From Zygnema cylindricum (Eukaryota > Streptophyta > Zygnematophyceae > Zygnematales > Zygnemataceae), in NCBI GenBank assembly GCA_037447655.1, contig JBBHKE010003115.1, positions 62,001 through 126,000 on the forward strand: 64,000 nt of DNA. Direction: 5' to 3'. Shown one piece after another: positions 22,976 to 64,000 of this stretch (the stretch's first letter is position 1; each line of letters begins with the position of its first letter). Both the position numbers and the translations under genes were made by a program. Under the pieces are notes generated by a model that searched no databases, was not told where the DNA came from, and saw only the letters and a program-made list of their open reading frames with translations.

Positions 22976-22976
22976 T

Positions 22977-27819: not shown

Positions 27820-27829
27820 CTTACATTTG

Positions 27830-29600: not shown

Positions 29601-29623
29601 TTCCCCCCCTCTTAGTCAGCCTT

Positions 29624-31669: not shown

Positions 31670-31675
31670 TGGGTG

Positions 31676-32939: not shown

Positions 32940-32948
32940 TTTTGGAGC

Positions 32949-33593: not shown

Positions 33594-33929
33594 TGTCCAT
33601 TTGTCACAGCTTGTTCACACCAATCAATGAGTCTTTTACGTCACTTTAATTATATCAATCCGTTCGCTCCCCCAATCCGTGAATCTATTCAAACCGCCAT
33701 AATAAATCCAATTAGCAGTTACAGGCAAACAGTCTCGTACGCACGAAACTGACTTTTCAAAACATCCCCCGAAAATTTAGTTTCGTGCACCCAGAAAAAT
33801 ATGCAGCGTGTAATGCTATGTTGCTACGATGCGCTAGTTTGACATCGCAGTCCTAACTGCTGCTCTTTTTCACCTTTAACTTCCTCCTCATTGCCTCATC
33901 TCCTGAGACTAAAGCTTTCAAATTCTACA
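33594..33929 (-). repeat. TR-GAG 3' LTR, truncated
   Basis: On the minus strand begins TGTAGAATTTGAAAGC after the tract GCTTTAGGGGAG. About 160 bp (33594-33757) repeats at 37124-37274, sharing TCAATGAGTC and CCAATCCGTGAATC. The remaining part of the LTR that exists in the 5' copy is absent. Confidence 0.75.
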
Positions 33930-34078
33930 CTCCCCTAAAGCTTTAGACTCATTAGTCCATGTTGTACGCAAATGTTTCCACTCTAATGGATAAACAAAAG
34001 AAAAAAAAAAAAAAATATTCAAAATTCTGTATCAACCTCCACTGTTCATCATACAATAAATTTAGCAAAAACACCACA

Positions 34079-34411
34079 TCACCAGTGCTTTGCCGACGTC
34101 GCCATTGCTCCTGCTGCCCTCTGCCAATTCCCAGTCGCTTGCTGCCTTCTAGCAAAAAGTGTCCTGTAATAGCTCCCCTTACGCCATAAATGCATAACCC
34201 CTGAATGTTTAGTTGCTTGTACCTGGAATAAAATAATCAGCGTGTAAGTGTCATACGGCACCACTCCTTTTGCTGCGCCGCTATGCTGCGTCGCTGTTCG
34301 CGACGCGAACTTCTTCTGATGATTCTCCACTGCTTTCGCTGCGTTCTGCCATGTCTCCCGAAATTTCCGTTCCTGACAAGTCATTGCTTCCACCACCTCC
34401 TTTGTTTTCAA
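34079..34411 (-). pseudogene. Short copia pol-like remnant
   Basis: The frame starts near TKEVVEAMTCQERKF, resembling the EAMTCxER stretch in the linker just before RT in copia units 1 and 2. The remaining ~80 residues are unrelated. It may be the residue of the pol gene lost by this element, or chance. Weakly supported. Confidence 0.35.
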
Positions 34412-34598
34412 AAATACATAAATAAATCTTTTTGTTTCTTTTCAACTAACTCAACAAGGAAGAATACAAATCTAAAGTCCAACCAAAAACAAATAGAATG
34501 TCAAACAAAGTTGTCTTTATAAGACATGCTTGTAAAATAAGTTTTTCAAAACTAAGATTTCTCTAAATTCACATTCTTCAGAAATATCCTCCAGAAAA

Positions 34599-36320
34599 TC
34601 ATTTCTCCCGCTCTCTTTTTTTGATCACTTTCTGAGCATGTTTTCTTCTACCCTTGATCTTTTGAATATTACATCTTCTTTTTGTTTTCTTCATGATCTT
34701 TTGTCTTGTTTGAAAGTTTACATTTCTATCACAATTTTCTACTCGTTTAAAGTCACAAATATTAGTTTTCTGTTTCACCTTTATGTTTTTCTCCATAAAT
34801 TTGCTACTTCTATCAACTTCATTCATTTGAGAGATTTTAATTTTGATTCTTCTTCTTTTCAGCTGCACTCTTTTAACTTCTGCATTTCTATTACAATTTT
34901 CAATCCCACAAACTTCTTTTCTCACTCCAATTTTTTGAACAGTTTTTCTTTGTTTTTCTCCTAGTTCACCAATTTTCACGACCACCTTACTTCTAGTTTT
35001 TGCTTCTAAGTGTCCATCTCCTCCTTCAACTCCTCTTGCTTTAGTTAACAAACTTTCTTGTAAGCAATTTTCACTCACAGATTTTTCACTTGATAAGGTC
35101 ACAGAAATCGTGTCCTTCTCTCTTTTGTCCTTCACCACACTATCTTCGGTGACATAACTCCTTCCACCAGTTTCCACATTATACACCTCATTCCTAATTC
35201 CAGTTTTCTTCATATCTTCGCCCGGTCCTTCTAGAAAAATTGGGTTTAGTTTATTAGTCTTTATGTTTAAGTATTTTTCGGCTTCCACTTCCAAGTGACC
35301 TTGACTTCCTCTAATTTCTCTTACTTCAAACAACTCTTCCTCCTGTAACTCTTTGTTACTCACCAATCTGACGTCGGGAAAAGGGACAGACATTAAATCC
35401 TTTTCTGTCACCTCCTCCTTTACTCCATTCCAACCACCACAGAAGGTCGGTAAATACATAAATTCGTCAACACACGGTGTATGCCTTTTGTCATTTGTCG
35501 AGTCTTGTCTCTCACTCACGAAAGCACTTGATTCCTTTCTTGTTGGGGTTCGAACTAGGGTGTTGTCCCATCCATCTCTGAAATTCCCTGTAACACATGC
35601 ACTTTTATACGATGGACATACCCTGAAGGTATGTCCTAAATCATTACAGTAAAAACAATTCTTTGGTCGATCTCCGAACTCACTATTACCTTTAATTTTC
35701 TGAAACTGAGACTTAGATTCCTTCATATTCCTTTCACTTGATAAAACCTTTCTATTAGCCTCTTCATCTAGAATAACTCGTCTAGCTACAGTTATACTCC
35801 AATCATTTTTATCAATTAAAGTCAATCGATCTAGTGCACTCTTATATTCTTTAGGTAGACTTCTCATTAACAAAATAGCTTGTTGAGCATCTGTAAAGTT
35901 TCCCCCTGCCAAATCATTTTCTGCAAATAATACTTGTAAGTCAATACAGTGTTTCTCCATACTACCTCCTACATACTTGTGTTTAACTATTTTGGTAACA
36001 CTACTAAGCCAATGATATAAAGACGTCTTTGCATACATACATTCTAAGCTCTTCCATAATTCATTTGCCCTTTTATAACTTAGGTATGACATTACCAAAT
36101 CCTCAGTCAAGGAGTTCTTGATAACCCTTAGACACTCATGATTTTTCCTTTTCCAGTCATTTGATGTTTCGGCCAAGGTACCGTCCACCACATCCATTAG
36201 CTCCATCATCTCGAAGTAGCTCTCAAGCGCACACTTCCAGTAGTGATATTTCGATCCATCAAATATAGGTAACCATGGGTGTGGGCCCATAACCTGTTGT
36301 CCATAGCCTATTTCAGCCAT
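34599..36320 (-). CDS. TR-GAG: Gag-like protein with zinc knuckle and long basic tail
   Basis: An uninterrupted frame of 573 codons, or 564 if started at the primer-site ATG. The N-terminus, MGPHPWLPIFDG then YHYWKCALESYF, matches copia Gag. A central Gag core includes MRSLPKEYKSALDRL, and a CCHC knuckle CFYCNDLGHTFRVC sits near residue 225. The last ~340 residues are unlike copia pol: Ser/Glu-rich then strongly basic, ending KVIKKREREK. It would assemble particles or package RNA, relying on another element for reverse transcription and integration. Its open frame contrasts with the broken elements around it, suggesting a recent insertion or selection on Gag. Confidence 0.82.
   Translation of the reverse strand: MAEIGYGQQVMGPHPWLPIFDGSKYHYWKCALESYFEMMELMDVVDGTLAETSNDWKRKNHECLRVIKNSLTEDLVMSYLSYKRANELWKSLECMYAKTSLYHWLSSVTKIVKHKYVGGSMEKHCIDLQVLFAENDLAGGNFTDAQQAILLMRSLPKEYKSALDRLTLIDKNDWSITVARRVILDEEANRKVLSSERNMKESKSQFQKIKGNSEFGDRPKNCFYCNDLGHTFRVCPSYKSACVTGNFRDGWDNTLVRTPTRKESSAFVSERQDSTNDKRHTPCVDEFMYLPTFCGGWNGVKEEVTEKDLMSVPFPDVRLVSNKELQEEELFEVREIRGSQGHLEVEAEKYLNIKTNKLNPIFLEGPGEDMKKTGIRNEVYNVETGGRSYVTEDSVVKDKREKDTISVTLSSEKSVSENCLQESLLTKARGVEGGDGHLEAKTRSKVVVKIGELGEKQRKTVQKIGVRKEVCGIENCNRNAEVKRVQLKRRRIKIKISQMNEVDRSSKFMEKNIKVKQKTNICDFKRVENCDRNVNFQTRQKIMKKTKRRCNIQKIKGRRKHAQKVIKKREREK
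36281..36294 (-). promoter_or_regulatory. Half-tRNA primer-binding site, TR-GAG
   Basis: Minus-strand GGTTATGGGCCCAC directly follows the LTR terminus (ACAACA). It complements the anticodon arm of plant initiator tRNA-Met and includes an in-frame ATG of Gag. Confidence 0.82.
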
Positions 36321-37274
36321 GGATTACTCACGGAAACACCCACAGACTACCTCAAAAACAGTTGTGTTTCAGACAGCACAGATTACTCCAAACTGAACAG
36401 AATAACCTCAAACGTCACCAATAAGCATTATACCATATACACTATAAACTCCCAAAGTTACAGCAAAATCCACCAAGGCATCTAGAAGATATAGGCTCCA
36501 GAGTTTCACAAAAAAAACTGACAGGTTCACAAGCTAACCACTTAGACTGCTCACAGAATCTTACAGAGATACTGGAATACAATGAAACTTCACACATATA
36601 TATATATATATATTCTATATCATAAAAAATCTCCACAAAGTTTCACATGAAAGAACCAAACAGAGTGATCACACCAACAGGTCAAAGATGCAGAAAACAG
36701 TTTGCCATTGCTTTGATAAACTTGATTGCGATGCATAAAATAATCTAAGTCCTGCAAGTTAAACTCAGAGTACGGAGGCATACCAGCCGTACTGTATCTA
36801 CTCTAATAACCTAACTAGTCAAAAGGACAAACCTTTGTTTTACATAATATTTACACCGTACTCTTCGTATGTCAGAAACCAAGCTACCACTAAGCAACTA
36901 CTAAGCTACCACTACCGTACAATCATCATTACTTGAGATCTATCCAAGTCATATTATCCGCAGCTACGCTAGCTGCGCTGGCTGCGCAGGCTGCGCTGGC
37001 TGCGCTTATCCGTACGGATCATACAAATAGCCGCAGCTATGTTGACTTAACTGCGTCGCAGCTCCGCCGTACCGCGGCGCCTATTCAGTTTATTTTACAT
37101 CGGATCGCTTCGCGATCCGCCGTCCATTTGTCATAGCTTGTTCACACCAATCAATGAGTCTTTTACGTCATTTTAATTATATCAATCCGTTTGCTCCCCC
37201 AATCCGTGAATCTATTCAAACCTCCATAATAAATCCAATTAGCAGTTACGGGCAAACTGTCTCGTACGCAGGCG
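36295..37274 (-). repeat. TR-GAG 5' LTR, truncated
   Basis: Ends ACAACA at the primer site. Its outer end at about 37274 joins gypsy-1 methyltransferase sequence. It contains a (TA)n microsatellite at about 36597-36612, and a GCTGCGCTG tandem repeat at 36963-37006. Confidence 0.7.
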
Positions 37275-37335
37275 GCTTTTCAAAACAGGACTAATTCCTG
37301 AAAATAAAGATAAAACCCAAAACCCGGTGTCGGAG
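37275..37335 (-). pseudogene. Gypsy-1: methyltransferase motif I remnant
   Basis: On the minus strand the sequence encodes WVLSLFSGIS followed by VLKSRLRT, corresponding to the cofactor-binding motif I of the gypsy-2 enzyme (ILDLFAGIGTSLLSCLRN). Beyond CTGCGTACG the reading turns into LTR sequence with stops. This marks the left part of the methyltransferase cut by the nested element. Confidence 0.72.
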
Positions 37336-38380
37336 AGTGTCAATGAAACCGCTTATCGATTGAAGTCCTCGTTAACAGTCTTAGTGGGGAAAACATTTGA
37401 TCGGGTTGTCGAATCTGTTTTCGATGATGATAAGGCCGAGAAAGCATGATCTACTCCCCGCCGGAGTTTTGCCATCTGGAATAATCTATTTATGTATTCC
37501 CCTTCCCACCGCTTAGAAATCGAGAATTGCTAGATGTCTCCTGCAATATCTGTTGAATTATCGAACACCTCCGGCGGAGAAGATGTAGAATACACGGGGT
37601 AACAGCCAGACACAGGAACATTAGTCTTCCCCCGGTTCCATAAATCCAAAGGAACCACAACTTTGGTTCCTTCGCGATTTCCGGGGTCTCGAACTGTACA
37701 TTGCTCTTTCTAAACACTTAAACTCATATTCATCCGGGTCCAAGTAGCCATTTCCAACAGGATTTCAAACTGATTCCCCTCTACTACTAAGATAGGTAGT
37801 TCAATTTTCACCTTCTGTCCAGCATCATCGGAGAATTAATGTTCATGGCTTTGATGATTCCATGGACTAGTTGATTGCCGCTGCTTACTGTGCTTAAGCA
37901 GATGTTACTTGGGCATATTTGGGGCCTGAGTTCTTCAGTCATTTTCTACAATGCCGAGGTGGAAATAAGGTTAGGAAGTGCTCCGGTGTCGACCACAGTG
38001 TCCTGGTACCTGCCATACCCATTGAGTTTGAAATCGCCTGTTCGGTTCAGAATGAGAGCCACAGACAAGGTTTTGTAGTCCTTATCCACCATAGGGGTCT
38101 TCGCGTCGGAAGACAAATGTACCTCCAGGGGTGGTGTTACCCGATCTACTTTGTCCTTTCCAGAATGTATCGCTTCTCCCGGCGCCTGAATGAGGATTTC
38201 TTCCGGCAGATTATGGAATGAGGCAAGGGTCTTGACATGGGTTAGGGCACACGGCATAAGGTGCCTGACTAGCATGACAGCAGGCTTGGATGAAAGGAGT
38301 GGGGGCTCTCGAGGATGAAGCCGGCGAATCTGGTTCCCGATTCTGTTCATTCCCCTCCTTGTCATCACATTCAGAACCAC
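37336..38380 (-). pseudogene. Gypsy-1: aspartic protease region
   Basis: In 37946-38380 the C-terminal part reads VALILNRTGDF, then DTVVDTGALPNLIS, where DTG-A is the retropepsin active site. Further pieces in two frames (37490-37717 and neighbouring frames) correspond to the protease C-terminal region and the linker to the methyltransferase. Stops and frameshifts are frequent. The order protease then methyltransferase motif I is the same as in gypsy-2 and in the 46 kb relic. Confidence 0.78.
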
Positions 38381-39641
38381 AATCGGGCATTGGAGGAGTT
38401 TTGGGTGCCTCTTCGTCTAGACGTTCGGCCATGAACCACTCAAACCAATCCTGAGTGCTCTGTTTGTCCTTTTCCAGTGATTTCTTCATCTGCTGTAGTT
38501 TCTCGCTCTTGTAATTTTCGAAACCGGGAGGCAGTTTAGGCTTAGGAGGAAGAGGAGGAGGTTGAGTTGGCTTGATCCCAAGACATGTGTCACTGTTTAG
38601 CACTACTGCCTGGGGCGTGAAAGATAAAGGCCCGGTGGCCTTCCGGATGTGGTCCTTCCTGCTCATTGTCTGCCTATCTCTCCTCTGATCCAAGGTTGAG
38701 GAGCGAAGTTGTTTACGACCATCTCCTACTCCCACATTCCACGCTCTGTGCCGGAAGCTGCTTGCATGGTGGGCATTTGGGGGTTCCAAATACTAGCCAA
38801 TTAAATCATCGTCATTAGCACCCGCTGTGCTTTGTAGTTCAAGCTCCGCTAGCTTCTGTAGTAACTCCTGTTTCTGTCTTTGGAGTCGTTGCTCTGCTGT
38901 CAGAGGAGCAGTCCGAGAAGACAATCCCAAACAAATTGCAGCCAATTCCGTTGCCCTGGCGGCCATCTGGTGACTCTGTTGTTGGATTATAAACTCCGGT
39001 GTAAGTCTGGCTGGGGAAACCGATGCTCTTTCCGGAGTCTTGGGTATAGGCAACACGTGGCGCCCCCAAGGGTAAAGAAGTTGTAGGGGAAGAGGATTAA
39101 CCGCTATTTCTCCTCCTCCCGTGAACAGAGCGAATTGCATCATTTCCTTTGGAATTCCATTCTTCCGAAAACATTGCCCCTCCTTGTGCCCCAAAAAATC
39201 ACAGGCCTCGCACTTGTGACCCTCGGTAGTATACTTGCTCCGGATCTCGTTGGAGATCTGGGCGTCGTCAAACTTTGGCAGTTTGATTTGCCGCAGTTGA
39301 GATTGGGACATTTTAGAAGTTTCGCTCCGGGAAGTGGGGCGGTAATTGTCCTTGGTGACCGGTGTTCTCTCCTCCCCCCCAGCTCCTTTGAGACGTTCTT
39401 CATGCTGCTTCTGGCTCCTTTCTGAACGCTTTACATCCCATTTTTTCAGCTTGAGGGCTAGCTCCGGTTTGAGTTTCTTGCTGCAGCGTTTCCATCCATG
39501 TCCCGGTTGTTGACAATTGAGGCAATTGTACAAAATTACCCGATCGTCTACCCCCATTGCAAGTTTTGGCCCGCTGTCCACCGCTCGCTTCCCTTTAAGC
39601 TTCGGCAAAGCTTGAAGTTCCGCTTGTTCTTCCCCACTCAA
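38211..39641 (-). pseudogene. Gypsy-1: Gag C-part with zinc knuckles and Gag-protease linker
   Basis: Frame 38793-39641 (282 codons) contains a CCHC-type knuckle, NCLNCQQPGHGWKRC, a second Cys/His cluster CEACDFLGHKEGQC, and Lys/Gln-rich coiled regions ending in a Leu/Gln-rich helix. Frame 38211-38789 continues as a Pro/Glu/Lys-rich linker (NSDTCLGIKP, PPPLPPKPKLPPGF, KLQQMKKSLEKD) that leads into the protease. One stop near 38790 lies between them. The sequence does not resemble the Gag of gypsy-2, although the downstream pol is closely related. Confidence 0.72.
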
Positions 39642-43900: not shown

Positions 43901-45869
43901 CGTGCACTCCTTTCACTCCAATTTCGCTTTACGACGCCCCGCGCCGCGCGGCGCGTCGCAAGTTTAAATATGTTTAGGGTTTTTTTCTTATTCGTGTTTT
44001 TTTTTATAAAAAAAAACCCGAACCAATAACCCTATGACCTAAAAAATCCGCGGTACCCGGGCGGTATTTTGCAAAGTGTGAAGGTCTTGGCGCATTTTGC
44101 CTCGTGTAGGAGACCTGCACACCCTGCACACCACGGGCGAGAAAACTAACGAACCTTACCTGTACTTTTCTTATCATTTTTATTTAGTACATTATTCTTT
44201 TCATGAGCGACTAGCGTTGTGAGTTTGTGCTCCCTCTAAGTCTACAGGTGTAACACTTTGCTCCCACTCGCCCAGTTTTTAGGTCAAAAAAAAGGTTGTA
44301 TGTGAGTGACGCGGCAAGCCAAATGGTGAAGATTCCATCTGCGAACAAGTGGGTATCCGAGCCGCATTTGTCTTTTTCTGGTTTTTGAACATCATTACGA
44401 AAGAACCTAACAAAAAAAAAAAAAACCCCAAGGATCGCGGTGTAAATATCTACCGTTCGATTTTACTTGTCAGCCGCATCCGAGGAATAAATCGCTCCGC
44501 TCAACCAGTAGGTGACCGCCGGTCACGCGCAGAGTTTTTTTTTTTTTTCTGCCGGGCGTGAACTTTGGCGCTCGGGCGGCACCTGATGGTTTCTAGATTT
44601 TCCGGGCGAGCGCACATTCCGGGTGGCGGTACAGAGTAGGGCGGCACCGACACTTCCTCTTTCTTTCCAGCGTCGGGTTGCACTGGGTAGTTTTGTTATT
44701 TTCCGGCGAGCTTAGATTCAGAGCGCTGATTCTGGGCGGCTATCGGGAGCCGGGCGTCACCCTACGGCCTCATTCGATAATCATTGCGGAATTACGCGAG
44801 CAAACGCTTCGGCGAACCAACATGTGAATAATAATTAGGGTTCGCACCACACGCGTTCGAATTCTAATTGCGCCTATTCTGTTTATTTGTACGTAGTTGT
44901 TTTCATGGGTGTACTTCGCACGCTTAATGTATGTTCTCGTGTGACCGTTACTTAATCTTCGTACTTTTATTTTAAATGAAGATTATCCGTAGTACTTTTC
45001 AGACTTTTCCCATGTTTGAAAACGAAACAACATTTACACTACTTACAAAAATGTGACGGTTGTAGACGCGGGTACAATTCGTGACGGTTGTACACGACTA
45101 CAAAACTACACCATGGATCGCTTTTAGTGTACAGAAGAAATAATGTTATTAACGTCATATTGTGTTCATGACCTCGTGCCAACAAAATATTAACTCTAGT
45201 TATCCATCTAATACCGATAAAGATACGCATTCCCATAGTGTAGCCCCTCCAACATGTGTTCACATAGTCGATGTTTGAACATGAGAGAACACGTTTGCAT
45301 GATTTCACCCATCTTTACTAATAGAAATAAATCATCAGAGCGCATTTTCGTGTCGCTGCCAAACATTTTTTTATCTCGACGCTTAACACTTTTTTTTGTA
45401 CATTGGTACTATGAGCATTTTTAGTACGGACTGACACATTTCATGCACTACACTATTTAAAAACCGGAGAAATTACAGTCAATGACAATGATTAAACCAT
45501 ACCTACATCAAGGTAAAGAAAAAAATAGTATTATTACTTTTATTTAAAGATGAAGGCTCAAAAATTAGGGGTGTGGATATAGTGTTATTCACAATAAAAA
45601 TGATTCACCTTGTAGCAACAATCACTGAAGTGAACAAAATAGTGACGATTGTAGATGTTTATTTTTAGGTGTTGGAAATGCTAATTGAATGGTAAGAGGT
45701 TTTTTGAGTTAGTAGAGTAAGCACAATAACTCTCACCTACTGTCAATCTAAACCTGGTTCTCTTCGCCATCTGAAACTCTTAAGTTATAATCAATGGTTT
45801 CCTTACATTCCTTTTAGTTGATTGTGACATTTCACACACATTTTGTCGCTGTTAAATTGCACTTGCAGT
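43901..45869. other. No gene recognised
   Basis: The left part is GC-rich in patches (44480-44760, many CCGGGCG and GGCGGCACC strings) and the right part AT-rich. Poly-T and poly-A tracts occur. It may be the upstream part of the decayed gypsy relic that becomes recognisable at 45870, but I could not find Gag motifs. Confidence 0.4.
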
Positions 45870-46600
45870 TTCTTATTATGGTTTTATATTTATATCACTC
45901 TCCAACGCACATTTTTTGGAGGTCATTCCTTACGCTTTAGTCATTGAAAGTATTGACTACGAATTCTTGATAGGACAATATGTTATATTACGTGAAGGTG
46001 GAGGGGTGGATATGAATGATGAGAGTTTTTCATACTAACCCGCAAACTACCCTGAACAAATAAGCGCCTCCCATTAACTTTTTGGGGAAAAAAATGCCCA
46101 TTTTGGCACATTCGGTTACCTCCGTTCTGGCATTTTCAATGAGTTGAGTGGTTGCTGAAATATTTTATTCCCTTTTGGCAAAAGGAGTTTTGTCCAAAAG
46201 TTATTCCTTGCCATAAATTTTTGGTGACCCCGGATTTCTTATAGATTTAAGAAAATTTGATTGAATAAAAAAAAACATATTGTTCCCTCCCCTATCTCTT
46301 ATACTAGAGTCATTCGACATTTCTTCCAATCAATTAAAAACCGGTCGAGTTCAATCCTCATCAAGATGGATTAGTGATCTTGGAACTATTTGCCGAAATT
46401 ATAACTTCTCATTTTTCTAGTATTATAAACGACCTAATAATTCGACGTTTTTATTCCATAAAGGTCGATCCTTTGGCACGCAAGGCGGATTTGCATCAAT
46501 GTAATTTTTTATATGTTCAATGCCCGCATTTACTAGTTATATGTGCATGTTTTCACATGGCTACCGTTTTCTCACAAAACATCCGGATGTATGTCAAGCT
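45870..46600 (+). pseudogene. Gypsy-3 relic: protease C-terminus plus methyltransferase N-terminus
   Basis: On the plus strand 45870-46040 encodes ALVIESIDYEFLIGQYVI and GGGVDMNDESFSY, aligning with ALVTKSEDYKCLVGQYVI and GSGVDMHDQTFFY of the gypsy-2 protease. After a decayed linker, 46365-46590 encodes LVILELFAEI (motif I), RRFYSIKVDPLARKADLHQC and CPHLLVICACFHM, aligning with the gypsy-2 methyltransferase up to about residue 77. A one-base deletion at the start and several substitutions (GIGT reads EIIT) show long decay. The rest is missing. This is an independent third copy with the same protease-methyltransferase order. Confidence 0.8.
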
Positions 46601-46781
46601 CGTGTGCATTCTTGGCACATTTCTACAACCAAGATTTGCGGGGCCTCATTCAACCACGTATGGACCCCAGCGTACATGGAAGGCGAGGACAACCAATCGG
46701 ATCAAACCCTTGTATTTTCACCTAGGAGCTCAACGCACTTTAGTTCACTTAAAACGGAGGTTGAACGACGGAGTTAGTCCG

Positions 46782-46965
46782 TTGCAACAGTGGCGACTTC
46801 ATAGCATGGCATATGTTCTACGTAGCTCTAGCAAAGGTGTATATTGTGAAAAATCACGTAACCTTTGGGATTGTTGCAACAGTGGCGACTTCATAGCATG
46901 GCATATGTTCTACGTAGCTCTAGCAAAGGTGTATATTGTGAAAAATCACGTAACCTTTGGGATTG
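46782..46965. repeat. Perfect tandem duplication, 92-bp unit x2
   Basis: Copies 46782-46873 and 46874-46965 start TTGCAACAGTGGCGACTTC and end ACCTTTGGGATTG, and appear identical base for base. They lie just downstream of the decayed gypsy-3 relic. Identity in otherwise decayed DNA implies a recent event or an assembly duplication. Confidence 0.92.
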
Positions 46966-54364: not shown

Positions 54365-55107
54365 AAAAACCCTCCCTAACTACATGTATGCACGAACATA
54401 CATGGGTTCGCGACTTAAATAAACATATGTATCGAAGCGTCGCCCGGAAATCGCGATACGCCTCCAAACGATACTTCACGTCGATACTCCCAAAATCGCG
54501 TGCGTACACACGAAACGAAACATATCGCACGAAATATATAGTATCGCACGAAATACTTGAAAAATGTGTACCTGCGCATGAAACGACATGGTACCAGGCA
54601 CGAAATTAGTATTTGTTCTATTAGACGTGTACGCGAATCGCGTACACATCAAACATAAATAAATCGCGGTCGCACGTGCGACCGAAAATCATACACGCAC
54701 GCCGAAATATCGTGCGTGCGAGAATGATATCGTGCGCGCGTGAATGAAATCACGCGCACGCCGAATATCGCGAACGCTTGCACGATATCGTGCGCGTGGA
54801 CACAATATTCACGTGCGTGCACCGTATTGTGCACGCATGCAGAATATCACGCGCGCGAGCACAATATTGTGCGTGCGTGCGCGATATTGTGTACGCATGC
54901 AAAATGTTGTGCGCGCATGCGTCCGATACCATGCGGCATGACAGCTGTCGTGCATGAGAGACTAGAAAGAGCGAACATGCATCCCAACCAGCAAAGTCAT
55001 GCTCCAAACATATATACAAACGAAAATGAATGAGATGGGCAAAAGGTATATAGAACATGAAAAAGAATAAATGTGAAGATGACCAAAAGAATAAAAAGGG
55101 AAGAATA
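54365..55107 (-). repeat. Gypsy-2 3' LTR
   Basis: About 740 bp bounded at the internal side by a polypurine-like GCTAGGGGAG. The outer part repeats at 63829-64000. The central part (54620-54930) consists of degenerate units mixing GATATCGTGCGCG, ATATTGTGCGTGCG and CACGCATGC, rich in alternating purine-pyrimidine. Exact termini are approximate because no TG/CA pair is obvious. Confidence 0.72.
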
Positions 55108-55152
55108 CTCCCCTAGCAAGAAGTGAATCCTATAATCCCCCCCCCCAGCTCC

Positions 55153-56076
55153 TTAGCCTGCGGAGGAGCTGGTCAAAACCGTTGGCAGCTCACGACAGCC
55201 ATGGCAAAACCAATGGCCACTTGGCACAGCTGTCAATGGAGGAACTAAACACTCCATGTGGAAACCTTGGTTACAATGGTCGCACAAGAGCATAGAAGTC
55301 TCGCCGTCTGCTCGCCTGCAAATAGTACATTCCGTTGCTTCTGTTATTGGCATCCTCATCGGATCCATATCCTGTGACAAATCCGGTAAGTAACAAGGTG
55401 CACAGTTCTTCGAATGCTCTCGAATTATCCTTGTATCCGCACCCTGCAAACCCAACATCCCATTAGCATATATTTCCACCACACGAAGAATGTGTGGTGA
55501 AACATCCGTGTCCAAAGTGTCGAAAGATTGTCGACGAAGGTACACGTAATCTCCGACTTGGTAAGATTTCAGTTGAGGCTTGTAACTGCCACTTCCCGTA
55601 GTGGCAAAGCGCAAGGTATCCCGATGTTGGGCAATCTGCAAATTATCAAAAGCCATGGGCATCTCACGAGCGAAAAGCAAAGCACGGCGAGTTAGTTCTT
55701 CCAAGAATATGGTGTCAGACATTAGAGGCAAAGGTAAACTTGCTACTTTCTGAATATTCCGACCGAGCAAGGGTGCTCGGCCGAAGAGAATATAGTACGG
55801 GCTGAAATTAGCCAAGCTAGCTTGTACGGACATCCGGTATCCCATGGTGATATAGCCCAAGGATTCGTCCCAGACGGAGATGTGTTTCTCCAAACAATGC
55901 TTTCGGAGGGCTCGCTTGAAAGTTTGGACAGCTCGTTTCGCCAAGCCATCGGCTTGTGGGTGATCACGACTCGTCCGGCGATGATCAATTAAAGATTCAT
56001 CCAACATCTCTTGAAATTCCCCGCGGAACTCTGTACCCTGGTCCGTGAGAACCTCCGCCAGAGCTCCATAATGCAT
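55153..56076 (-). pseudogene. Gypsy-2: integrase core C-part, tail and PHD finger
   Basis: A 307-codon frame. It opens with EVLTDQGTEF (second catalytic D), then DGLAKRAVQ, where the expected catalytic Glu is Lys (AAA at 55936-55938). The integrase tail GDYVYLRRQSFDTLDTD and ILRVVEIYANGMLGLQG follows. The last ~65 residues form a PHD finger: CTIC, CDHC, GFHMEC, HWFCHGC, which is C4HC3 with the conserved Trp. PHD fingers read histone H3 tails, so a role in choosing integration sites is plausible, comparable to chromodomains in chromoviruses. The stop follows directly, before the polypurine tract. The upstream core is in another frame. Confidence 0.9.
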
Positions 56077-56350
56077 GAGGACGTGCTCTTTAAGCAGCAG
56101 TGGTCAATTTAGCGGTCTTGTGGGGAAGAGCGACCACCTCTACCCATTTGCTAAAATTTTCAATCATTATCATAATGTATTGTTTCCCCTTTCGAGATAA
56201 GGGAAACGGTCCGACGAGATCCACGGACCAGCGATAAAACAATCCTCTGATGGGCAATGGCTGTAGAGACACCTGCGGATTAGAGAAAGAGGTGCGTAAC
56301 CGGTCGCATATGGCGCATTTGTGGAGAATGGCCGCCACATCCACTTGCAT
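56077..56350 (-). pseudogene. Gypsy-2: integrase zinc end and first catalytic Asp
   Basis: Frame 56090-56350 shows CAICDRLRTSF (the CxxC of the HHCC zinc module), YRWSVDLVGPFP with the first catalytic Asp, and MIENFSKWVEVVALPHK. It then shifts frame before the second catalytic Asp at about 56040. The short stretch to RNase H (56351-56530) holds the His pair of the zinc module in decayed form. Confidence 0.85.
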
Positions 56351-56530
56351 TCCGGACCACCAATAGCGTGCCTATAGAAGGCTCAAAGTACGCTTGGTCC
56401 CGTAATGGCCAAGCTCGGTATGTATCTGCTCAATCAAAGACAAGCGCTTGGTTGGCCGGGGGACATGGCGATGACTGCTGTCCGCCAGCAATCGAACTAA
56501 AGATCCGCCAAGCCACAGATAGTTTTTGGC

Positions 56531-58549
56531 TCATTTCTTTACTCGGTTGTCTTCCTCGGCGGTAGTACCGGGCTGAAAAGTTTGAGAGGAGAGGAAGAGG
56601 ATTAATGGGCCGTCGCGCCACGGATCCGTGGCCGGCCGAGGATGAGGAATAGAAGAAAGACAGTAAGTGATATAGGAACCAACCGACATGGCCGGTACCT
56701 CGTCCTCGTCGAAATCTTGCCGGACACCGTTATCGGTGGTCCGGGGTAGTGGATTCCGAGAAATCCCGTCGACGTTCAAGCTTAACAAACCAGGCCGATG
56801 GATGATCTCAACGTCGTACTCTTGTAAAATTAAAGCCCATCGGGCAAGCTTCCTTGAAAGCTTATCGTTGGTCATCAACCAATGAAGGGGTTGATGGTCA
56901 GTTAGGAGCGTGAATGGCTTGCCGTAAAGATAATGTCGAAAATGAACAATACCCCATACTGCGGCCAGACATTCACCCTCGTAACTACTGTAATTAGATT
57001 CAGCTCGGTTATTGCTCCGGCTAGCGTATGCCACTACGTATTCCTCTCCATTCAACTCTCTTTGCGTTAAAATAGCCGCAATGCCTGGCTTCCCGAAATC
57101 GGTTTGTAGGCAAAAGGGAAGCTTGTGGTTAGGAGGTCCAAGAATGGGAGCGCTAGAGAGGGCGGTTTTCAGTTTTTGAAACGCTTCTACTTGGGCGGGT
57201 CCCCAAACAAAAAGCACTTCTTTTTTGAGAAGGTCGTTGAGGGGAGAAGCAATCGTACTAAAATTCAGTACAAACCGACGGTAATAATTGGCTAGTCCGA
57301 GAAAAGCCCTCAGACTCGTGAGATTCGTGGGGGGCGGCAGTTTGGTGATCGCCTCTACCTTAGCTTCCAAGGGAGCGATGCCCTCAGCCGAAATAAAATG
57401 GCCGAGATAAGGCACTCCCTCCGCACCGAAAGTACACTTGGCTGGATGAAACTTCAGCCCGACTTTCTTTAACTCGGTGAGAACCCACTCAATATGGCGG
57501 GCGTGCTCCTCAACCGTGGCGGATGCAATTATCAAGTCATCGATGTAGCACCGGGCAAATTTACATCCACCCAGCACCGAATCCATGACTTTTTGAAACA
57601 CGGCGGGTGCGTTCTTAAGACCGAAAGGCATGGCTGCCCATTCCCACCGACCATCACTGCCCCAAAATGCAGTTTTATGCCGATCTCTTTCCTCGATTTC
57701 AATTTGGTTAAACCCTTGACGCAAGTCAAGAATGCTAAAGAACTTTGCACCCCCTACATGGTCAAATATTTCCTCCGCTAGAGGCATAGGGTGGCGGTCT
57801 TGAACGGTCCGAGCATTGAGCTCTCGATAGTCCCCACACATTCTTCGCTCAGTAAAATTTCCGTCGGAATCTTTCTTCCTAGGCATGACTGTGGGGGCGG
57901 CAAAGGTGGAATCCGACCGATAGATTAGACCGGCTTCTTCTAATTCTGCGCATCTTTTGTCCACCATCTCCCATTCCATTTCAGAGAGACGGTGTTTCGG
58001 CTTAAAGATAGGTCGATCGTCTTCAAGGTCGATTGACATTTTGTAAGTAGAATGACGTCCAAGGTCATTCATGGAGAAATCAAACGCATCTATATGACGG
58101 GTGACTGTGTCACTTAATAGTGCCTGTTCCGCCTTCGTGAGACTGGAACCAAACTTCCACTTGGGCGTCTCAGGACTCTTAATAGTGAAAGCTTCCATGG
58201 CATGAGCAAATGCAATTTGCTCATCGGCGATGAGTGAGTGGCCTAACTCGTATTTTACCGGAGTTTGCTGCGAGCAGTTCACCCAATGGTGCCAGCTACG
58301 CGTCGGAAATGCAGCTGTCCAGTGCGGTGGAGGGCCAGGAAACAATGAAATTGTGGATTGAACGGCTGTATAGGCCGGGATTTCCCAAGACATATGACTG
58401 GGGTTGAGGAAATCATAGATGTGCTTAACCGCCGGTGTGAGAGAATGGAAGAGAAAAAACTGAAATGGATTTCCCTTTAGACTAGGAGAGGTGCGAGAGG
58501 AAACAAGCCGTGAAGGAGCCGCTGTATTCCCCCCCCCAGCTGGTTGCAC
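56531..58549 (-). CDS. Gypsy-2: reverse transcriptase and RNase H
   Basis: An uninterrupted 672-codon frame. About the first 130 residues are an N-terminal region without a clear domain. RT follows with FAAPTVMPRKKDS, RRMCGDYRELN, FSILDLRQGFNQI, MPFGLKNAPAVFQ, and the catalytic RCYIDDLIIA. The connection region has TSLRAFLGLANYYRRF. RNase H shows LQTDFGKPGIAAIL (the first acidic residue is in QTD), EYVVAYASRSNN, YSSYEGECLAAVW and LLTDHQPLHWL. It ends with a stop at 56531, shortly before integrase. Between the methyltransferase and this frame are an in-frame TAG (CTT TAG) and a run of 9 G on the coding strand that changes frame. Confidence 0.92.
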   Translation of the reverse strand: MQPAGGGNTAAPSRLVSSRTSPSLKGNPFQFFLFHSLTPAVKHIYDFLNPSHMSWEIPAYTAVQSTISLFPGPPPHWTAAFPTRSWHHWVNCSQQTPVKYELGHSLIADEQIAFAHAMEAFTIKSPETPKWKFGSSLTKAEQALLSDTVTRHIDAFDFSMNDLGRHSTYKMSIDLEDDRPIFKPKHRLSEMEWEMVDKRCAELEEAGLIYRSDSTFAAPTVMPRKKDSDGNFTERRMCGDYRELNARTVQDRHPMPLAEEIFDHVGGAKFFSILDLRQGFNQIEIEERDRHKTAFWGSDGRWEWAAMPFGLKNAPAVFQKVMDSVLGGCKFARCYIDDLIIASATVEEHARHIEWVLTELKKVGLKFHPAKCTFGAEGVPYLGHFISAEGIAPLEAKVEAITKLPPPTNLTSLRAFLGLANYYRRFVLNFSTIASPLNDLLKKEVLFVWGPAQVEAFQKLKTALSSAPILGPPNHKLPFCLQTDFGKPGIAAILTQRELNGEEYVVAYASRSNNRAESNYSSYEGECLAAVWGIVHFRHYLYGKPFTLLTDHQPLHWLMTNDKLSRKLARWALILQEYDVEIIHRPGLLSLNVDGISRNPLPRTTDNGVRQDFDEDEVPAMSVGSYITYCLSSIPHPRPATDPWRDGPLILFLSSQTFQPGTTAEEDNRVKK

Positions 58550-58575
58550 GGGGTGATTCTGTACGTAGCGACCAG

Positions 58576-59581
58576 CTAAAGGCAGAGACCTAAGACAAAT
58601 GATAAAGATTGAGGATCCATGACCCTACCCAACAAAGTGCAACGCTGTCTATCCGTAAGGCCGGGGGCCGCAGTCGTGCGTGGAATAAAATGCAGGAGAT
58701 GTTCCCGTTCTGTGGCCGTAGGCTCCTCTAACTCTCCAGTGACATTATTCCGGAGCATGCCTGGACCGTTATGAGAGTATGCATGGGAATTAGGGTAAGA
58801 CACTAAAGTAGGAAGGACCTTGAGGGGCTTGGGAATTAGGGTAAGACACTAAAGTAGGAATGACCTTGAGGGGCTGGCCAGGTACATTAATGCTGTAATT
58901 CGGAGGGTAGTCGGATTAGACACAAGATTGGACTTGGTGGAAGGGAAGCAAAGCGGTCGTAATGTCTATAGTCCGAGGTCGTACCAACAAATTAGCTTCA
59001 CGAAGACGACCAACATCGATTAGGTTCGTCCATTTGGAGCGAACCCGATGTGCCAAGGACCCATGCCGAGCGGCATTAATAATTAGCGGGGGTCCGATAA
59101 GGTGTTCTATGCGCTTATAGTCAGCCAGAACTGTTGGCCGAGGATCATTATAGGCGGCGACGTTCTCTAAAATGTATCCGACAGGCTTGGCCATGGTTTG
59201 AAGAAAATGAAGGACCCTCAAAAGCTCAAAAAACAATTTGGTACGGGGATCCGCCAAACCAAGACCTTTGCCGGCCCGAGACATGCCTTGACACTCCCAC
59301 CCTCCGAAAACAAGGTCTATCGGTTCGACATCCCGGAGATGATGATTACTAAGGATGCGGATGTCTTGTGGAAGAGCAGTGTGCATGTGTAGAAAGGCTG
59401 ACTTTGGAAACAAGTGTGGATACTGTGAATGCAGGAGATTACAGTGGTGCAATTGTGCTTTCCTAGCTAATGCATCAATTTCTACTGCATAGTAGTGACG
59501 GATGAGGAGACCATTCCGTAAACATGACAATAGTGAAGTTCCGATCCCAGCGAATAGGTCTAGAATAACGACCCCGTCCAT
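58576..59581 (-). pseudogene. Gypsy-2: C5-cytosine DNA methyltransferase (DNMT3-like)
   Basis: Numbered from the Met at 59581: motif I ILDLFAGIGT (residues 6-15, AdoMet binding), motif II YAVEID (31-36), motif IV FGGWECQGMS with the catalytic Cys97, where the usual Pro before Cys is Glu, then G-x3-D-x-R-x-KLFFELLRVL, motif VI GYILENV (ENV 139-141), and motif VIII HRVR (178-181). The frame meets TAA at 58916-58918. Motifs IX-X (TATEREHLLHF, then RQRCTLLGR) continue at 58576-58803 in another frame because of a 46-bp tandem duplication. The LFFExxRxL string, the AHRxR context and the RQR-LLGR end resemble DNMT3 enzymes. It is in frame with the protease, separated by one TAG. It would methylate cytosines; as read it is inactivated. 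Confidence 0.92.
58784..58875. repeat. 46-bp tandem duplication within the methyltransferase
   Basis: Copies 58784-58829 and 58830-58875 both start TGGGAATTAGGGTAAGACAC and differ at one base. As 46 is not a multiple of three, it shifts the methyltransferase frame. Removing one copy would restore the match to the gypsy-1 sequence PTLVS-x-P-x-SHA. Confidence 0.93.
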
Positions 59582-59731
59582 ATGAGGACTCAGTTGTACG
59601 GGTTTCCAATTGATAGGAAGGAAACTTGAAGGATTGGTTGCAACTGTAGGTATAGGAGGGATAGTTGTTAATGGAATAGATAATGTGGACTTATAAATAT
59701 TGTCAAATATGTGAGAATTGATAAAAATACC

Positions 59732-60502
59732 CTATTCCGCAAAGAGCTCGGGTAAGGAAGAACTATCCGGTATGATTTCTTCGGCCGAAAAAGAGTGGAA
59801 AATTTCCTCCCCAACGGAGTTCCCCAAAAATGCGGGAAGAGCCGTAGCTGAGTGAGCCATGGTGGGCAAAGGTCGGCGGGTTGAAGTGAGAGGGAGGCAA
59901 ATTTTTCGCTCTGGAAAGTGTGTAGGTCGGTAAAAGAATGTTTGGTCGTGCATGTCCACGCCACTGCCAATTTGGAATATAACGTATTGACCCACCAAAC
60001 ACTTATAGTCTTCACTTTTAGTGACCAACGCTCTGACGACAATTTCAACGAACTCATTTTCAGTTTCTGTCTGAAACCGAAAGATGAGGGGGTACTTTGT
60101 GATTCCGAGGACCGGCTCCGTGGTCCCAACCAAAGTAAGAAGGCGGGTAGCGGTCGCCTGAAGCTTGTCTGCTCTCAAACCAGGCTTCAATGCAAATCCG
60201 GATCCGAGGATCACGGGTTTGGCCCCGGTGTCCATAAGAGGAAGAGTGGGGTGAACACCGTTCACTGAGAATGATCCCCGAGAGTTATCAAGGAAACTGA
60301 TATGGTGATCGAGATTACGACGCTCTTCCGTAGTAACCGGTTGAACCGCTGAAAGACTGCGGTTTAACCGCAGAGCCCTCAAAGCGGCTGCCGCTGCGAC
60401 CTCATCAACGAGGGGAAGGGCTTTTGGTACATCCTCTAACATCGCTGAAATAATACTTAATCGCTCCTTCACCCGATGAGCCTCATGAATAGTGCCATCC
60501 AA
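59732..60502 (-). CDS. Gypsy-2: aspartic protease
   Basis: A 256-codon frame. The active site is LPLMDTGAKPVILG (DTG at about residues 92-94), followed by GTTEPVLGITKYPLIF and a C-terminal part with CLVGQYVIFQIGSGVDMHD. It would cleave Gag and Pol. It ends at TAG 59730-59732, after which the same frame stays open through a ~50-codon linker into the methyltransferase. A fused protease-methyltransferase product is therefore the likely ancestral state. The upstream Gag part is in a different frame. Confidence 0.88.
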   Translation of the reverse strand: MDGTIHEAHRVKERLSIISAMLEDVPKALPLVDEVAAAAALRALRLNRSLSAVQPVTTEERRNLDHHISFLDNSRGSFSVNGVHPTLPLMDTGAKPVILGSGFALKPGLRADKLQATATRLLTLVGTTEPVLGITKYPLIFRFQTETENEFVEIVVRALVTKSEDYKCLVGQYVIFQIGSGVDMHDQTFFYRPTHFPERKICLPLTSTRRPLPTMAHSATALPAFLGNSVGEEIFHSFSAEEIIPDSSSLPELFAE

Positions 60503-61052
60503 TATCGTCAGTGCCTTTGCCGCGATGGTAGGAGCGGTTTTTCAGGAGGGAAAGCAGAGGCTCTTTTGCAAATGAGAGTGGGACACGAGAATTTTGTAAT
60601 TTGCCCACTCGGTTATGGTCTGCTAAGCTCTTTTCAAATGTGGTCACCAATTGTTGGACGGTGGAATTGTGAAGGGTTCGCCCGGCCAACGACGGCATGT
60701 GGACAACGGTCCTAGCCATCCCAGTAAATTAGGGTTTTATTTCCGCCATGAAAGCTGCAAATTGCTCTTTCATCTTGGGCGCCATTGTGGCTTGAAGCTC
60801 GGACTTCTCTCCCTCTCTATGAGAGATCTTAGGACGAGCTTCCTCCTTCTCGGTATCCTTAGGCGGAGTGACTTGTTTCGCGGAACGGGCCGGAATTTCG
60901 CCGTTTTTTATCTGATTTTGATAAGTGAAATTAGGGTCATTGATGTGGCACCGATGGACATAATGTCCCTTTTGGTGGCAATGAGTGAAAGTGGCGGCCT
61001 TGTCGGGACACATGCGGGCATCGTGCCCGGTTTTTCCACATCGGAAACACAT
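60483..61052 (-). pseudogene. Gypsy-2: zinc knuckle and Gag-protease linker
   Basis: Begins with a CCHC knuckle, CFRCGKTGHDARMC, and a second CxxC/H cluster (THCHQKGHYVHRC), then a Lys/Glu-rich segment up to a TAA at 60729. The same frame continues at 60483-60719 with LHNSTVQQLVTTFEKSLADH. Gag ends at a TGA directly before the knuckle Met (61053-61055), so a single stop divides Gag from the nucleocapsid part. Confidence 0.8.
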
Positions 61053-62258
61053 TCAATTTCCGGGATTGACTGGTGGAGTTCTCATGGCTGGCGTGTTCTG
61101 GAGCCTATTAGGAGGCCATGGGTTTTTAGGTGGAGGAGGAGATGGATTAGCCGGTTCCCTGTGAGGAGGTTTGGACCGCTCATGGGCGTCCCACCACGAT
61201 GTCTGCATCTCATACTCTACCGCGTATTGAGCCGCTTGCTCAAAGGTGAATTTCAGTCCATACATCTGACTGAGGTGGTTTTGGATAAACCTCTTTGATG
61301 GACCTGGAAACTGTCCCACAAATTTCTGGACAGCCTCCGCATCGGACATGAGGTCCGGTAATGCTTCCCGCAGAGTTTCCATCCAAGCTCGCAAGGCAGG
61401 GGCAGTTTCACTTGGCCTACGCTCGAAGTTCATTAACTCTTTGATTTGATCCGGATTTTGCATCCGGTACTCCTCTTGGAGGATATCAAACATGACTGAA
61501 AGCGGGTCACGTAAGGGAATGGTGCCCCCCGCTCTAGCTGGGACCGCCGCTCGGGCAGCCACTGCATACTGACGAGGAACCTCGGGGATAGCTGGATACA
61601 ACTCGTCCCCATTAGCATCTAATACCGCTAGTCTTGGTGCCTGATATGGGATATCCACTTGGCCTAAGACTTCTGGTAACCCCGCAAAGGAAGCCACGTA
61701 CTCTGTCATCGCAAGCACATCCTCGTACTTGCGAGTGTAGAGTGTAAGGGCCGTACCGCGGAGGTATCGACCGAGAAGGGAAAAAGCGACACGGAGGTCA
61801 AACCTATCCTGATATCTAAATGCTAAATCCCTCATTTCCGTATCGTATAACATACGGAAATGCGATAAGGACATGGTGTCCTTCAATCCGGAAAAGCAAA
61901 ATTGCATCCTTCCCATGGATCCCTCGGAAGAGGAAGCCATGTCGTAAAAGGAAGGATGGGTCGGTTGTGCCAAAGCTGGGCTGGCAGGGAACCTACGAGT
62001 GTGAGGAATAGGAAAGGTTTCCTCCGGGAAGTCTTCTTCGGTCCCCTCTAGGTATGACCTAGATGAAACCGAGGACAGCGATGACGTAGATGTGAGACCA
62101 GACCGCACTGACGGCGATCTGCGATCCGCAATTGGATCGGATGTGGTCCACGATTCGGGAAAATCCGAAGGATTTAACTGCGGAGGACGATAGAGTGTAC
62201 CTCCTCGGGTGGACCCGGATAAATATTGAAGGTTATCCCAATCTGTGGGCATAAACAA
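61053..62258 (-). CDS. Gypsy-2: Gag capsid protein
   Basis: A 401-codon open frame starting MFMPTDWDNLQYLSG. After a Ser-rich N-part it shows the retrotrans_gag pattern: FSGLKDTMSLSHFRMLYDTE, RFDLRVAFSLLGRYLRGTALTLY, later LRAWMETLREALPDLMSDAEAVQKFVGQF and FTFEQAAQYAVEYEMQTSW, which match the capsid helices before the zinc knuckle. It ends in a Pro-rich tail, HREPANPSPPPPKNPWPP. This is a conventional gypsy Gag and is not similar to the proline-rich Gag of gypsy-1, although the two elements share related protease, methyltransferase and pol. Confidence 0.88.
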   Translation of the reverse strand: MFMPTDWDNLQYLSGSTRGGTLYRPPQLNPSDFPESWTTSDPIADRRSPSVRSGLTSTSSLSSVSSRSYLEGTEEDFPEETFPIPHTRRFPASPALAQPTHPSFYDMASSSEGSMGRMQFCFSGLKDTMSLSHFRMLYDTEMRDLAFRYQDRFDLRVAFSLLGRYLRGTALTLYTRKYEDVLAMTEYVASFAGLPEVLGQVDIPYQAPRLAVLDANGDELYPAIPEVPRQYAVAARAAVPARAGGTIPLRDPLSVMFDILQEEYRMQNPDQIKELMNFERRPSETAPALRAWMETLREALPDLMSDAEAVQKFVGQFPGPSKRFIQNHLSQMYGLKFTFEQAAQYAVEYEMQTSWWDAHERSKPPHREPANPSPPPPKNPWPPNRLQNTPAMRTPPVNPGN

Positions 62259-63828
62259 AGGGGAAAACCCTGACTACAATAATGAAATGTTTCGCACGAC
62301 CTAACCGAGATGCAACACGTGTCAGACCAATCCACTCACCCAGTCAACACACTCAGTCACTATCAAGATAGCAAATTAAGTTGCACCAAAAGAAAGAGAG
62401 ATAAGAAATATTGAGAAAAGTTCAAAAATAAAACACAAAGTACGGTAAAATTGGGCAAAAAGGTTTCCCAAACCCTAATTCCACGTTGTAAAAATCAAAA
62501 ATTTGCGACCAATGAATGGTAATATGCTGTCATAGGGTTGAGAATTTCAAAAAATAAAACCTTAATACGCCCAAACCCTAAATCTGCGGCCCAAACCCTA
62601 AATCTGCGGCCAAACCCTAATTTCGCAGATTAACCCTAAAAATCTGACACAAAATCAGACCTAAATCTGCAGACCAGAAATAGAGTGGAAGCAAGATAGA
62701 AGACAAGAATTGAAAGCAAGAAAGAAGAAAACAAAAAACCAAAACAAAATGTTTTTATTTTTTTATAAAATAAAATTTATAAATTAAATTATTTTTATAA
62801 TATATTTTCCCAATGCAAAACTGAAAGCGAAAGCAAAAATAGAGAGAAAGTAGAATGAAACTTGTAGAAAGGGAAAACAAGGAGAAAAAACCAAATCAAA
62901 AAATAGGTGGAAGAAAATATAGAAATGAAAAGTGGTGGATTTTATATTGAAAATAATGTAATTTTTATATTTTGTTTTTCTTTAGATTTATTTTATCACA
63001 CAAAACTGAGAAGTAAAACTGAAAATAAAAGGTAAATAGGCAGGAAAATAGAAAGACAAAAACAAGAATAAAAACTGAATATGAAAAGTAATATTTTTTT
63101 TTATGAAATAAAATTTATATATTTAATAATTTATTTTAAAAAAATATTATATTTTAGAAAATGTGATTTTAAAAAGTGTAGCTTTTGGACAAGAATGCTA
63201 AGCCAGGAGATAGCCACTAGGCTCTCTGGTCTTTATCACATTCTCTACAAGAGTTATCCCGTTACGACAGCAAAGTAAGAAATATTCCAATCGGAATAAG
63301 GGAAAATCCAATTCCGATCAAAAATACACTCCTTCCAAGCCAACCGAATTACAAACAAGACACAAACACACAACCAAACCGTCAAGCTGCCTGAGGAAGG
63401 CACAGCAAGGTACGGATGTGCTCCCCCACGATCTCCAATTCCACACTTCCACCAAAAGACTAAGCTTGGAGGGAAACCTTCCGGACGTGGCCTTAGGCCG
63501 TGTGGATCAAAAACATGGGCAGAAATAAAAGGGGAAATATTCTTAACCTATCTAGCCTCTACAGCTAGCAAGCAAGGAAAAGAAAGACACGTGGGCAATC
63601 GGTGAGAGAGAGAGCAAGAGAAAAGCTCCGCTGCGAAGAGAAAATTCTTGTCCAAAAGCTAAATTCTCTAAGTCTGAGAATTAGGCTAAGTAAGAGCTAC
63701 ACTAGGCCTAAGCAAAATTAGCCTACGTCTAGTCTACTTTACATGCATGAAACTACTAAAGATGTTGGCCAATAGGCGGCCAACATCGTCTGCCGTACGC
63801 CTGACAAAATCCACCATCCAAGGGTAAA
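62259..63828 (-). other. Gypsy-2 untranslated leader
   Basis: About 1.57 kb between the 5' LTR and gag. It contains AAACCCTAAATCTGCGG repeats at 62570-62640 (telomere-like AAACCCTAA strings), a very AT-rich block at 62740-63160, and no long reading frame. The primer-binding site should lie near 63800-63828. TTGGATGGTGGATTTTG there does not match a tRNA end that I can name. Confidence 0.6.
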
Positions 63829-64000
63829 AACCCTCCCTAACTACATGTGCGCGAACCTACATGGGTTCGCGACTTAAATAAATAAAAGGTATCGAAGCGC
63901 CGCTGATACCACCGGGAATCGCGATTCGTCGCCAAACGATACCGCACGTCGATACTCACAAAATTGCGTGCATACGCACGAAACAAAATATGTCGCACGA
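63829..64000 (-). repeat. Gypsy-2 5' LTR, partial (runs off the window)
   Basis: Repeats the outer 170 bp of the 3' LTR (54365-54540) in the same orientation with about 80-85% identity by eye. This divergence suggests an old insertion. The remainder lies beyond the window. Confidence 0.82.

Follow-up and report, generated by a model that had tools for sequence, protein, structure and literature searches.

A degenerate Ty3/gypsy retrotransposon with a predicted DNMT3-class methyltransferase and a PHD finger in Zygnema cylindricum

Described retrotransposon methyltransferases and the architecture of the Zygnema element

The capture of a DNMT3 by a gypsy element has been published for Klebsormidium nitens, in which KnitGypsy-Dnmt3 is reported to carry a non-rearranged, intronless Dnmt3 domain under purifying selection in its gypsy Pol and, according to the legend of Fig. 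4c, a DIRS-like repeat structure (de Mendoza et al. 2018, PMC5890265). The same report describes SymbioDIRS-Dnmt3 of Symbiodinium, which likewise has a Dnmt3 in Pol and A-coding-B-A-B repeats, together with the tyrosine recombinase of DIRS-type elements. A 2025 paper likewise places DNMT3s within retrotransposons of streptophytes and dinoflagellates (PMC12344493). As to host enzymes, DRM is reported to be streptophyte-restricted and CMT to be plant-specific from charophytes on (PMC12344493, PMC6453930), and plant DNMT3 carries a DUF3444 domain (PMC6453930).

The window analysed here, a 64-kb stretch of Z. cylindricum DNA spanning C2337:62001-126000, contains on its minus strand a locus (Element A) that is almost certainly a degenerate DNMT3-PHD Ty3/gypsy retrotransposon of the KnitGypsy-Dnmt3 kind, with a gag-protease-DNMT-RT-RNaseH-integrase-PHD polyprotein and A-coding-B-A-B repeats. 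Element A and a copy at C1344 combine a gypsy RT, RNase H, a DDE integrase and a DNMT in the Pol frame; like KnitGypsy-Dnmt3, the family has DIRS-like repeats, complete in five of nine copies (C1344, C829, C449, C1915 and C2602), and the window elements share an RT clade with the K. nitens proteins P0040 and P0045. The Klebsormidium capture mentioned in the first-pass annotation matches the published element (PMC5890265). The window family differs from it in its host, may differ in its Glu-Cys active site, and has a PHD finger, a term with no occurrence in the main text of that report. This finger is also found in two proteins that fall with the K. nitens RTs, P0020 and P0021, and it may therefore be an unreported shared trait. 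From SymbioDIRS-Dnmt3 the family is set apart by its DDE integrase and gypsy RT. The element enzyme shares a DNMT3-class catalytic domain with plant DRM and plant DNMT3; DRM differs by its permuted motifs, and no DUF3444 was found in Pfam scans of Element A or the scanned copies. Chromoviruses are chromodomain gypsy elements with a histone-reader-type module at the integrase C-terminus, a position that in the window family is occupied by a PHD finger instead; a chromodomain had no match in the same Pfam scans.

Read along the minus strand, Element A is composed of gag, a zinc knuckle, protease, DNMT, RT, RNase H, integrase and a PHD finger. Repeat comparison places its left terminal repeat A1 at 63826-64000 and on beyond the window to 64504, where the repeat starts with TGTCATGCCG. 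The open gag frame (61056-62273) has no Pfam match and is aligned by P0129 over 61928-60558 at 30%; it is followed by a zinc knuckle region (60732-61052; zf-CCHC, E 7.5e-4, just below the curated cut-off) and an aspartyl protease with the motif DTGAKP (59735-60541), whose match to PF13650 is weak and below the cut-off (E 0.0064). A second alignment of P0129, at 39%, runs from the protease through the DNMT (60328-58826). Motifs I-VIII of the DNMT, with ECQ at motif IV, lie in an open frame of 271 residues at 58916-59731 (P0001), recognised from the frame, Pfam and PDB/fold comparison, and motifs IX-X in another frame at 58580-58848, to which tblastn of relatives extends (about 58836-58579). RT and RNase H share one frame (P0002, 56534-58624; RVT_1 E 3.6e-29, RT_RNaseH 6e-35). 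Just as the first-pass annotation had it, the DNMT is placed between the protease DTGAKP upstream (60541-59735) and the RT motif YIDD downstream (58624-56534). The N-terminal part of the integrase (56085-56531) is interrupted by five stops in the frame tried, with relatives aligning over 58198-56093. The end of the integrase core and its C-terminal part (55330-56103; P0003 residues 1-258) are aligned by tblastn of P0006, P0009, P0013 and P0015 to 56094-55189, P0003 itself having no Pfam integrase match, and the PHD finger forms the C-terminus (55195-55329; PF00628, E 8.3e-12, with its ligand pattern and PDB matches).

A PPT-like run of ten Gs (55137-55146) stands ahead of repeat B1 (54946-55136), which ends with CATGCACGACA and was delimited by comparison with C2602, C449 and C829. 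Repeat A2, again starting with TGTCATGCCG, was placed at 54365-54943 by repeat comparison; A1 and A2 agree at 70% over 420 columns (63826-64241 versus 54365-54742), and no B2 was found downstream of A2. A run of nine Gs between DNMT and RT (58529-58537), with a like-placed run in the C1344 copy, is a possible second (central) purine tract or frameshift site, and P0009, P0129, P0020, P0021 and the K. nitens protein P0045 read LGGG at this place. The runs at 58529-58537 and 55137-55146 stand in like context (AGCTGGGGGGGG). The copy is dead: a TAA at 58918-58916 terminates the DNMT frame, a tandem duplication of ~46 bp near 58873-58782, recognised by eye, shifts the frame ahead of the C-terminal motifs, and there are more breaks after gag and within the integrase.

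Two further elements of this type lie in the window. Element B, on the minus strand, comprises a protease frame with DTGALPN (37946-38416, by eye), the C-terminal half of a DNMT (32949-33614, by tblastn; motif IV absent), and RT, RNase H, integrase and a decayed PHD finger (29612-32948; tblastn of P0017, P0009 and P0015 within 32735-29708, the finger by eye). The N-terminal half of its DNMT was not found, its expected place being occupied by a nested minus-strand retroelement (33595-37287; terminal repeats 33595-33764 and 37122-37287, 92%). Element C, on the plus strand at 45862-46589, has a protease (45862-46228) followed by the N-terminal part of a DNMT (46314-46589), with tblastn E-values of 3e-18 and 2e-28. 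A perfect 92-bp tandem duplication (46781-46964) lies directly downstream of Element C, and a direct repeat of ~293 bp (27828-28120 and 29306-29597, 95%) lies by the 3' end of Element B. The window also contains two adjacent Copia-type elements (11393-23277, with repeats at 11393, 16798, 17581 and 22978) and a further stretch related to them at 25480.

The methyltransferase domain and its active site

All the motifs claimed in the first-pass annotation were located on the minus strand, DLFAGIG, GGWECQGMS, ENV and AHRVR within the P0001 frame (59731-58916) and RQRCTLLGR in the separate frame at 58848-58580. P0001 matches PF00145 (E 3.8e-12), and searched alone against the PDB it has DNMT3A as its top match (E 1.5e-9). 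A 13-row DNMT profile likewise recovers DNMT3A first (9.7e-22), then DNMT3B (7e-21) and DRM2 (about 8e-10), with weaker matches to HaeIII/HhaI (2e-8), DNMT2 (2e-7 to 6e-7) and DNMT1 (1.6); the DRM2 match is split into two stretches because its motif order is permuted. With an AlphaFold model of the domain (pLDDT 78), all 50 of the 50 Foldseek matches listed are DNMT3 entries (E about 1e-11 to 5e-10, TM about 0.53). By these profile and fold comparisons, against a PDB that holds few plant classes, the domain is predicted to be a DNMT3-class C5-MTase. The class proposed at the outset is borne out in this way, and the opposite outcome it had allowed for, a frame falling outside the C5-MTases, did not occur, as the profile matches place it among them. 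The canonical, non-DRM motif order that had also been claimed is seen in the DNMT alignment (I-IV-VI-VIII-IX-X), with the last motifs of Element A in the other frame. A DRM origin is ruled out by the permuted motifs of DRM, and a bacterial one by profile scores of bacterial MTases far below those of DNMT3. Single-protein patterns, with a reach of close relatives, found no relative of P0001 in viral or bacterial/archaeal contigs. For a canonical host DNMT3, the exact DNA pattern GGSPCN[N/D] gave three matches in the genome, two DRM-like and one lacking such surroundings, and one in the control, and its absence is unproven.

A Pro-Cys dipeptide in motif IV is the general rule for the C5-MTase active site. 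Element A retains ENV, HRxR and RQR and has ECQ versus the usual PCQ at motif IV. A search of the genome assembly (352,776,454 bases in 2689 contigs) yielded at least 142 scored copies of the P0001 DNMT from 1481 first-look candidates, and among 30 fetched loci Glu-Cys is present in 29 (28 by script plus L025, which reads SECQ), with L009 reading WDRQ and PCQ occurring in none; the full ECQ is seen in 23 of the 29, the Q being replaced by another residue or a stop codon in the remainder. The exact DNA patterns GWECQG and GWPCQG have 164 and 200 genome matches, respectively, and none in reversed controls, these being DNA matches not each confirmed as an element. Ten fetched PF00145 loci comprise seven PCQ types, two members of the window family and one CMT-like exon, and the best matches of the seven PCQ types, with the DNMT rather than the flanking RT compared, are element DNMTs. 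Among relatives, ECQ occurs in P0010, P0126, P0031, P0129 and P0135, the P0129 and P0135 versions being in long frames, and PCQ in Marchantia P0039, P0127, P0128, P0130-P0134, P0136, P0137 and P0044. This recurrence across genome loci and relatives rules out ECQ as a peculiarity of the broken Element A copy. In the DNMT tree, Element B groups with PCQ copies from its own genome (100/100). A third DNMT type, also PCQ, is found at C412 (L050) as the sister of the Element B family (100/100).

The Glu-Cys active site weakens the claim of ordinary catalysis and leaves the DNMT3 class untouched. It raises the unlikely alternative that the enzyme, lacking the proline, is catalytically altered, either binding or flipping DNA or acting at a changed rate or on a changed substrate (e.g., RNA), and has been retained for that. 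The prevalence of Glu-Cys in the fetched loci and pattern matches, its occurrence in long frames with ENV, HRxR and RQR kept in Element A, and the presence of a PCQ family in the same genome (its 200 pattern matches partly checked) are what such an enzyme would predict; a dead domain would, however, not require the catalytic Cys and the ENV Glu, both of which are retained. Moreover, motif IV changes state at least twice on the smaller trees and three times on the largest DNMT tree, and a topology test does not reject a single ECQ clade (p-AU 0.258 and 0.165), so ECQ may be a tolerated change.

The PHD finger and a possible role in chromatin-guided insertion

The PHD finger of Element A has all eight of its eight zinc ligands, and its nearest solved relatives in the PDB are those of PHF12, Lid/KDM5, BAZ2, KAT6A, DPF, ATXR5 and AIRE, several of which read H3 unmodified at K4. 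In the limited literature searched, no LTR-element integrase is described as having a PHD finger, and such an account may exist elsewhere in print. Taking the evidence as a whole, we lean towards a KnitGypsy-Dnmt3-kind element with self-marking and chromatin-guided insertion. The mechanism that we tentatively propose is that the PHD finger tethers the integrase to chromatin and the DNMT marks the new copy. The finger would hold the insertion complex on nucleosomes, probably on H3 tails unmodified at K4, which would mean insertion away from active promoters. Being produced in the same Pol, the DNMT would therefore likely be in the same particle, and it would methylate the cDNA of its element or the newly inserted copy. 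Insertions might then arrive pre-marked as silent chromatin, do less harm to the host and persist. This model is supported by the de novo CG methylation reported for SymbioDIRS-Dnmt3 domains in yeast (PMC5890265); against it stands the inactivity of the KnitGypsy DNMT in yeast, a result termed inconclusive by its authors (PMC5890265). The replacement of Pro-Cys by Glu-Cys counts against self-marking, as does the model's silence on why other gypsy elements manage without a DNMT.

A rather improbable alternative is that the DNMT acts in trans on host genes or rival elements, whose methylation would disable defence or competition. The many copies could supply the enzyme in trans; Pol products are, however, generally held to act mostly inside particles, which is an argument against the idea. 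Stray activity of a retrotransposon DNMT reaching the Symbiodinium genome has been raised as speculation, and K. nitens, which carries such elements, is reported to have a land-plant-like methylome (PMC5890265), which is not what wide action in trans would suggest.

Selection, movement and relatives of the family

Twenty-five of the 30 copies are of equal length, giving 300 pairs, of which 217 are usable (dS defined and above 0.05). Their median dN/dS is 0.49, with 98% below 1, and the ratio is 0.63 at a dS of 0.05-0.15 (75 pairs), 0.46 at 0.15-0.3 (119), 0.28 at 0.3-0.5 (17) and 0.08 at 0.8-3 (3), three pairs lying outside these bins. Dead copies probably raise the ratio at low dS; against the KnitGypsy-Dnmt3 yardstick of Ka/Ks <0.2, the median of 0.49 includes dead copies and the 0.08 comes from three pairs only. 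Over 92 codons, the DNMTs of Elements A and C differ with a pN of 0.25 and a pS of 0.93. These codon comparisons indicate that the DNMT has evolved under purifying selection. It is hence very improbable that the DNMT is a passenger domain, once useful and now hitch-hiking: Element A is indeed broken, and stops fall inside the DNMT in 17 of the 30 loci and in many of the scored copies, but the ratios below 1, the low pN and the conserved in-frame motifs of relatives found elsewhere speak against it. The CpG observed/expected ratio is 0.89 in Element A (55156-62273) and in the C1344 copy and 0.90 in C829, and it is 0.68 in Element B and 0.57-0.60 in the Copia elements of the window; with values this high, CpG loss gives no clear sign of strong methylation throughout the life of the copies, a point against self-marking. 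The ratio of CpG-context transitions to CGs kept in both repeats gives a mixed picture (33:57 in C449, 40:41 in Element A, 4:91 in C2602 and 1:82 in C1915).

In seven scored DNMT copies the match is free of stops and belongs to a frame that spans between 956 and 2395 codons. The search for intact copies that the first-pass annotation had suggested recovered the C1344 copy, a single uninterrupted 2395-codon frame with the order gag-PR-DNMT-RT-RH-IN-PHD; Pfam scans of its two halves detect the DNMT, RT, RNase H, integrase and PHD finger, with knuckle and protease below cut-off. Across 931 bp, the two A repeats of this copy show no difference; its B repeats, like the A repeats of C829, agree at 99.6%. 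Judged from the identical terminal repeats at C1344, the DNMT-carrying gypsy family has therefore moved recently in its host. A misassembly or an unrelated host gene fragment is virtually out of the question as the source of the DNMT, and is refuted by junctions that are not unique to one copy, since Element B repeats the DNMT-RT junction and Element C the protease-DNMT junction, and both are found in most of the 30 fetched loci (protease upstream in 29 and RT downstream in 25, within 1.5 kb) and in proteins of other origin. The host sequences, namely two DRM-like loci with permuted motifs and GGSPCNN and an exon with GGPPCQG that we take to be CMT-like, are unlike the element DNMT; these loci and the exon also mark the host as a streptophyte.

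The five complete copies have the ends TGTCATGCC...CACGACA, and four are flanked around A...B2 by 4-bp target duplications (TTGG, AAGG, CCCT and CCCC), the fifth, C449, having TCAT/GCAT. In the other copies examined, Element A is without the last B, the A-coding-B-A-B arrangement was not seen in C2577, and A repeats were not found in C1407 and C1112 within the stretches examined. The palindrome GACAGCTGTC forms the inner B1/A2 junction, Element A included, and the A2/B2 junctions differ slightly between copies. For DIRS, the inner junction is proposed to template the joined element ends; by analogy, the B1/A2 junction may do so here. The tyrosine recombinase that is the hallmark of DIRS is replaced by an rve integrase in the C1344, C1407 and C449 copies, with the 4-bp target duplications noted above. 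No tRNA primer site was recognised by eye after A1, and three A1-adjacent sequences differ.

Relatives were gathered by protein searches with P0002 and the DNMT region of P0010. Besides P0001, 16 proteins match the P0010 DNMT profile, 15 over most of its length and P0126 over its first part; P0032 matches additionally with its C-terminus, and P0013 comes from a transcriptome assembly. The Closterium protein P0033 begins, by eye, with an apparent DNMT C-terminus followed by RT. In a quick RT tree, Elements A and B fall in a clade of 40 rows with proteins of Klebsormidium, Closterium, Calypogeia and Marchantia (SH-aLRT 99), throughout which carriers of DNMT and PHD are spread; where a row has no DNMT mark, the sequence may just have been cut off ahead of it. 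The K. nitens P0040 and P0045 are placed in this clade by their RT and may belong to DNMT elements. That elements of Klebsormidium, Closterium and liverworts join the clade points to an association of DNMT and gypsy far older than one algal genus. A second arrangement, with the DNMT after RNase H and ahead of the integrase, is seen in P0136 (DNMT between RNase H and integrase), P0044 (DNMT after RT and RNase H) and perhaps P0137 (a stretch after the DNMT resembling, by eye, the pre-integrase region). The DNMT tree unites all three (97/97), but in the RT tree the joining of P0044 and P0136 involves long branches.

As far as our limited literature search extends, the apparently new features are the PHD finger, a Glu-Cys branch that coexists with a Pro-Cys family, a DNMT in a second position, the broader range of hosts, the split-repeat boundaries with target duplications and the recent movement. 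It is conceivable, if somewhat doubtful, that these elements represent an ancient streptophyte-wide lineage that joins a PHD-DNMT3 reader-writer pair to DIRS-like split-repeat cDNA and a DDE integrase, with one branch that exchanged Pro-Cys for Glu-Cys while under selection. If true, such an exchange would imply an altered or newly regulated methylation chemistry. The Glu-Cys and Pro-Cys families within one genome offer a natural comparison. DNA methylation is normally directed at transposons; elements that bring along a methyltransferase, and whose integrase ends in a histone-reader-type finger, raise the question of whether silencing can serve the parasite.
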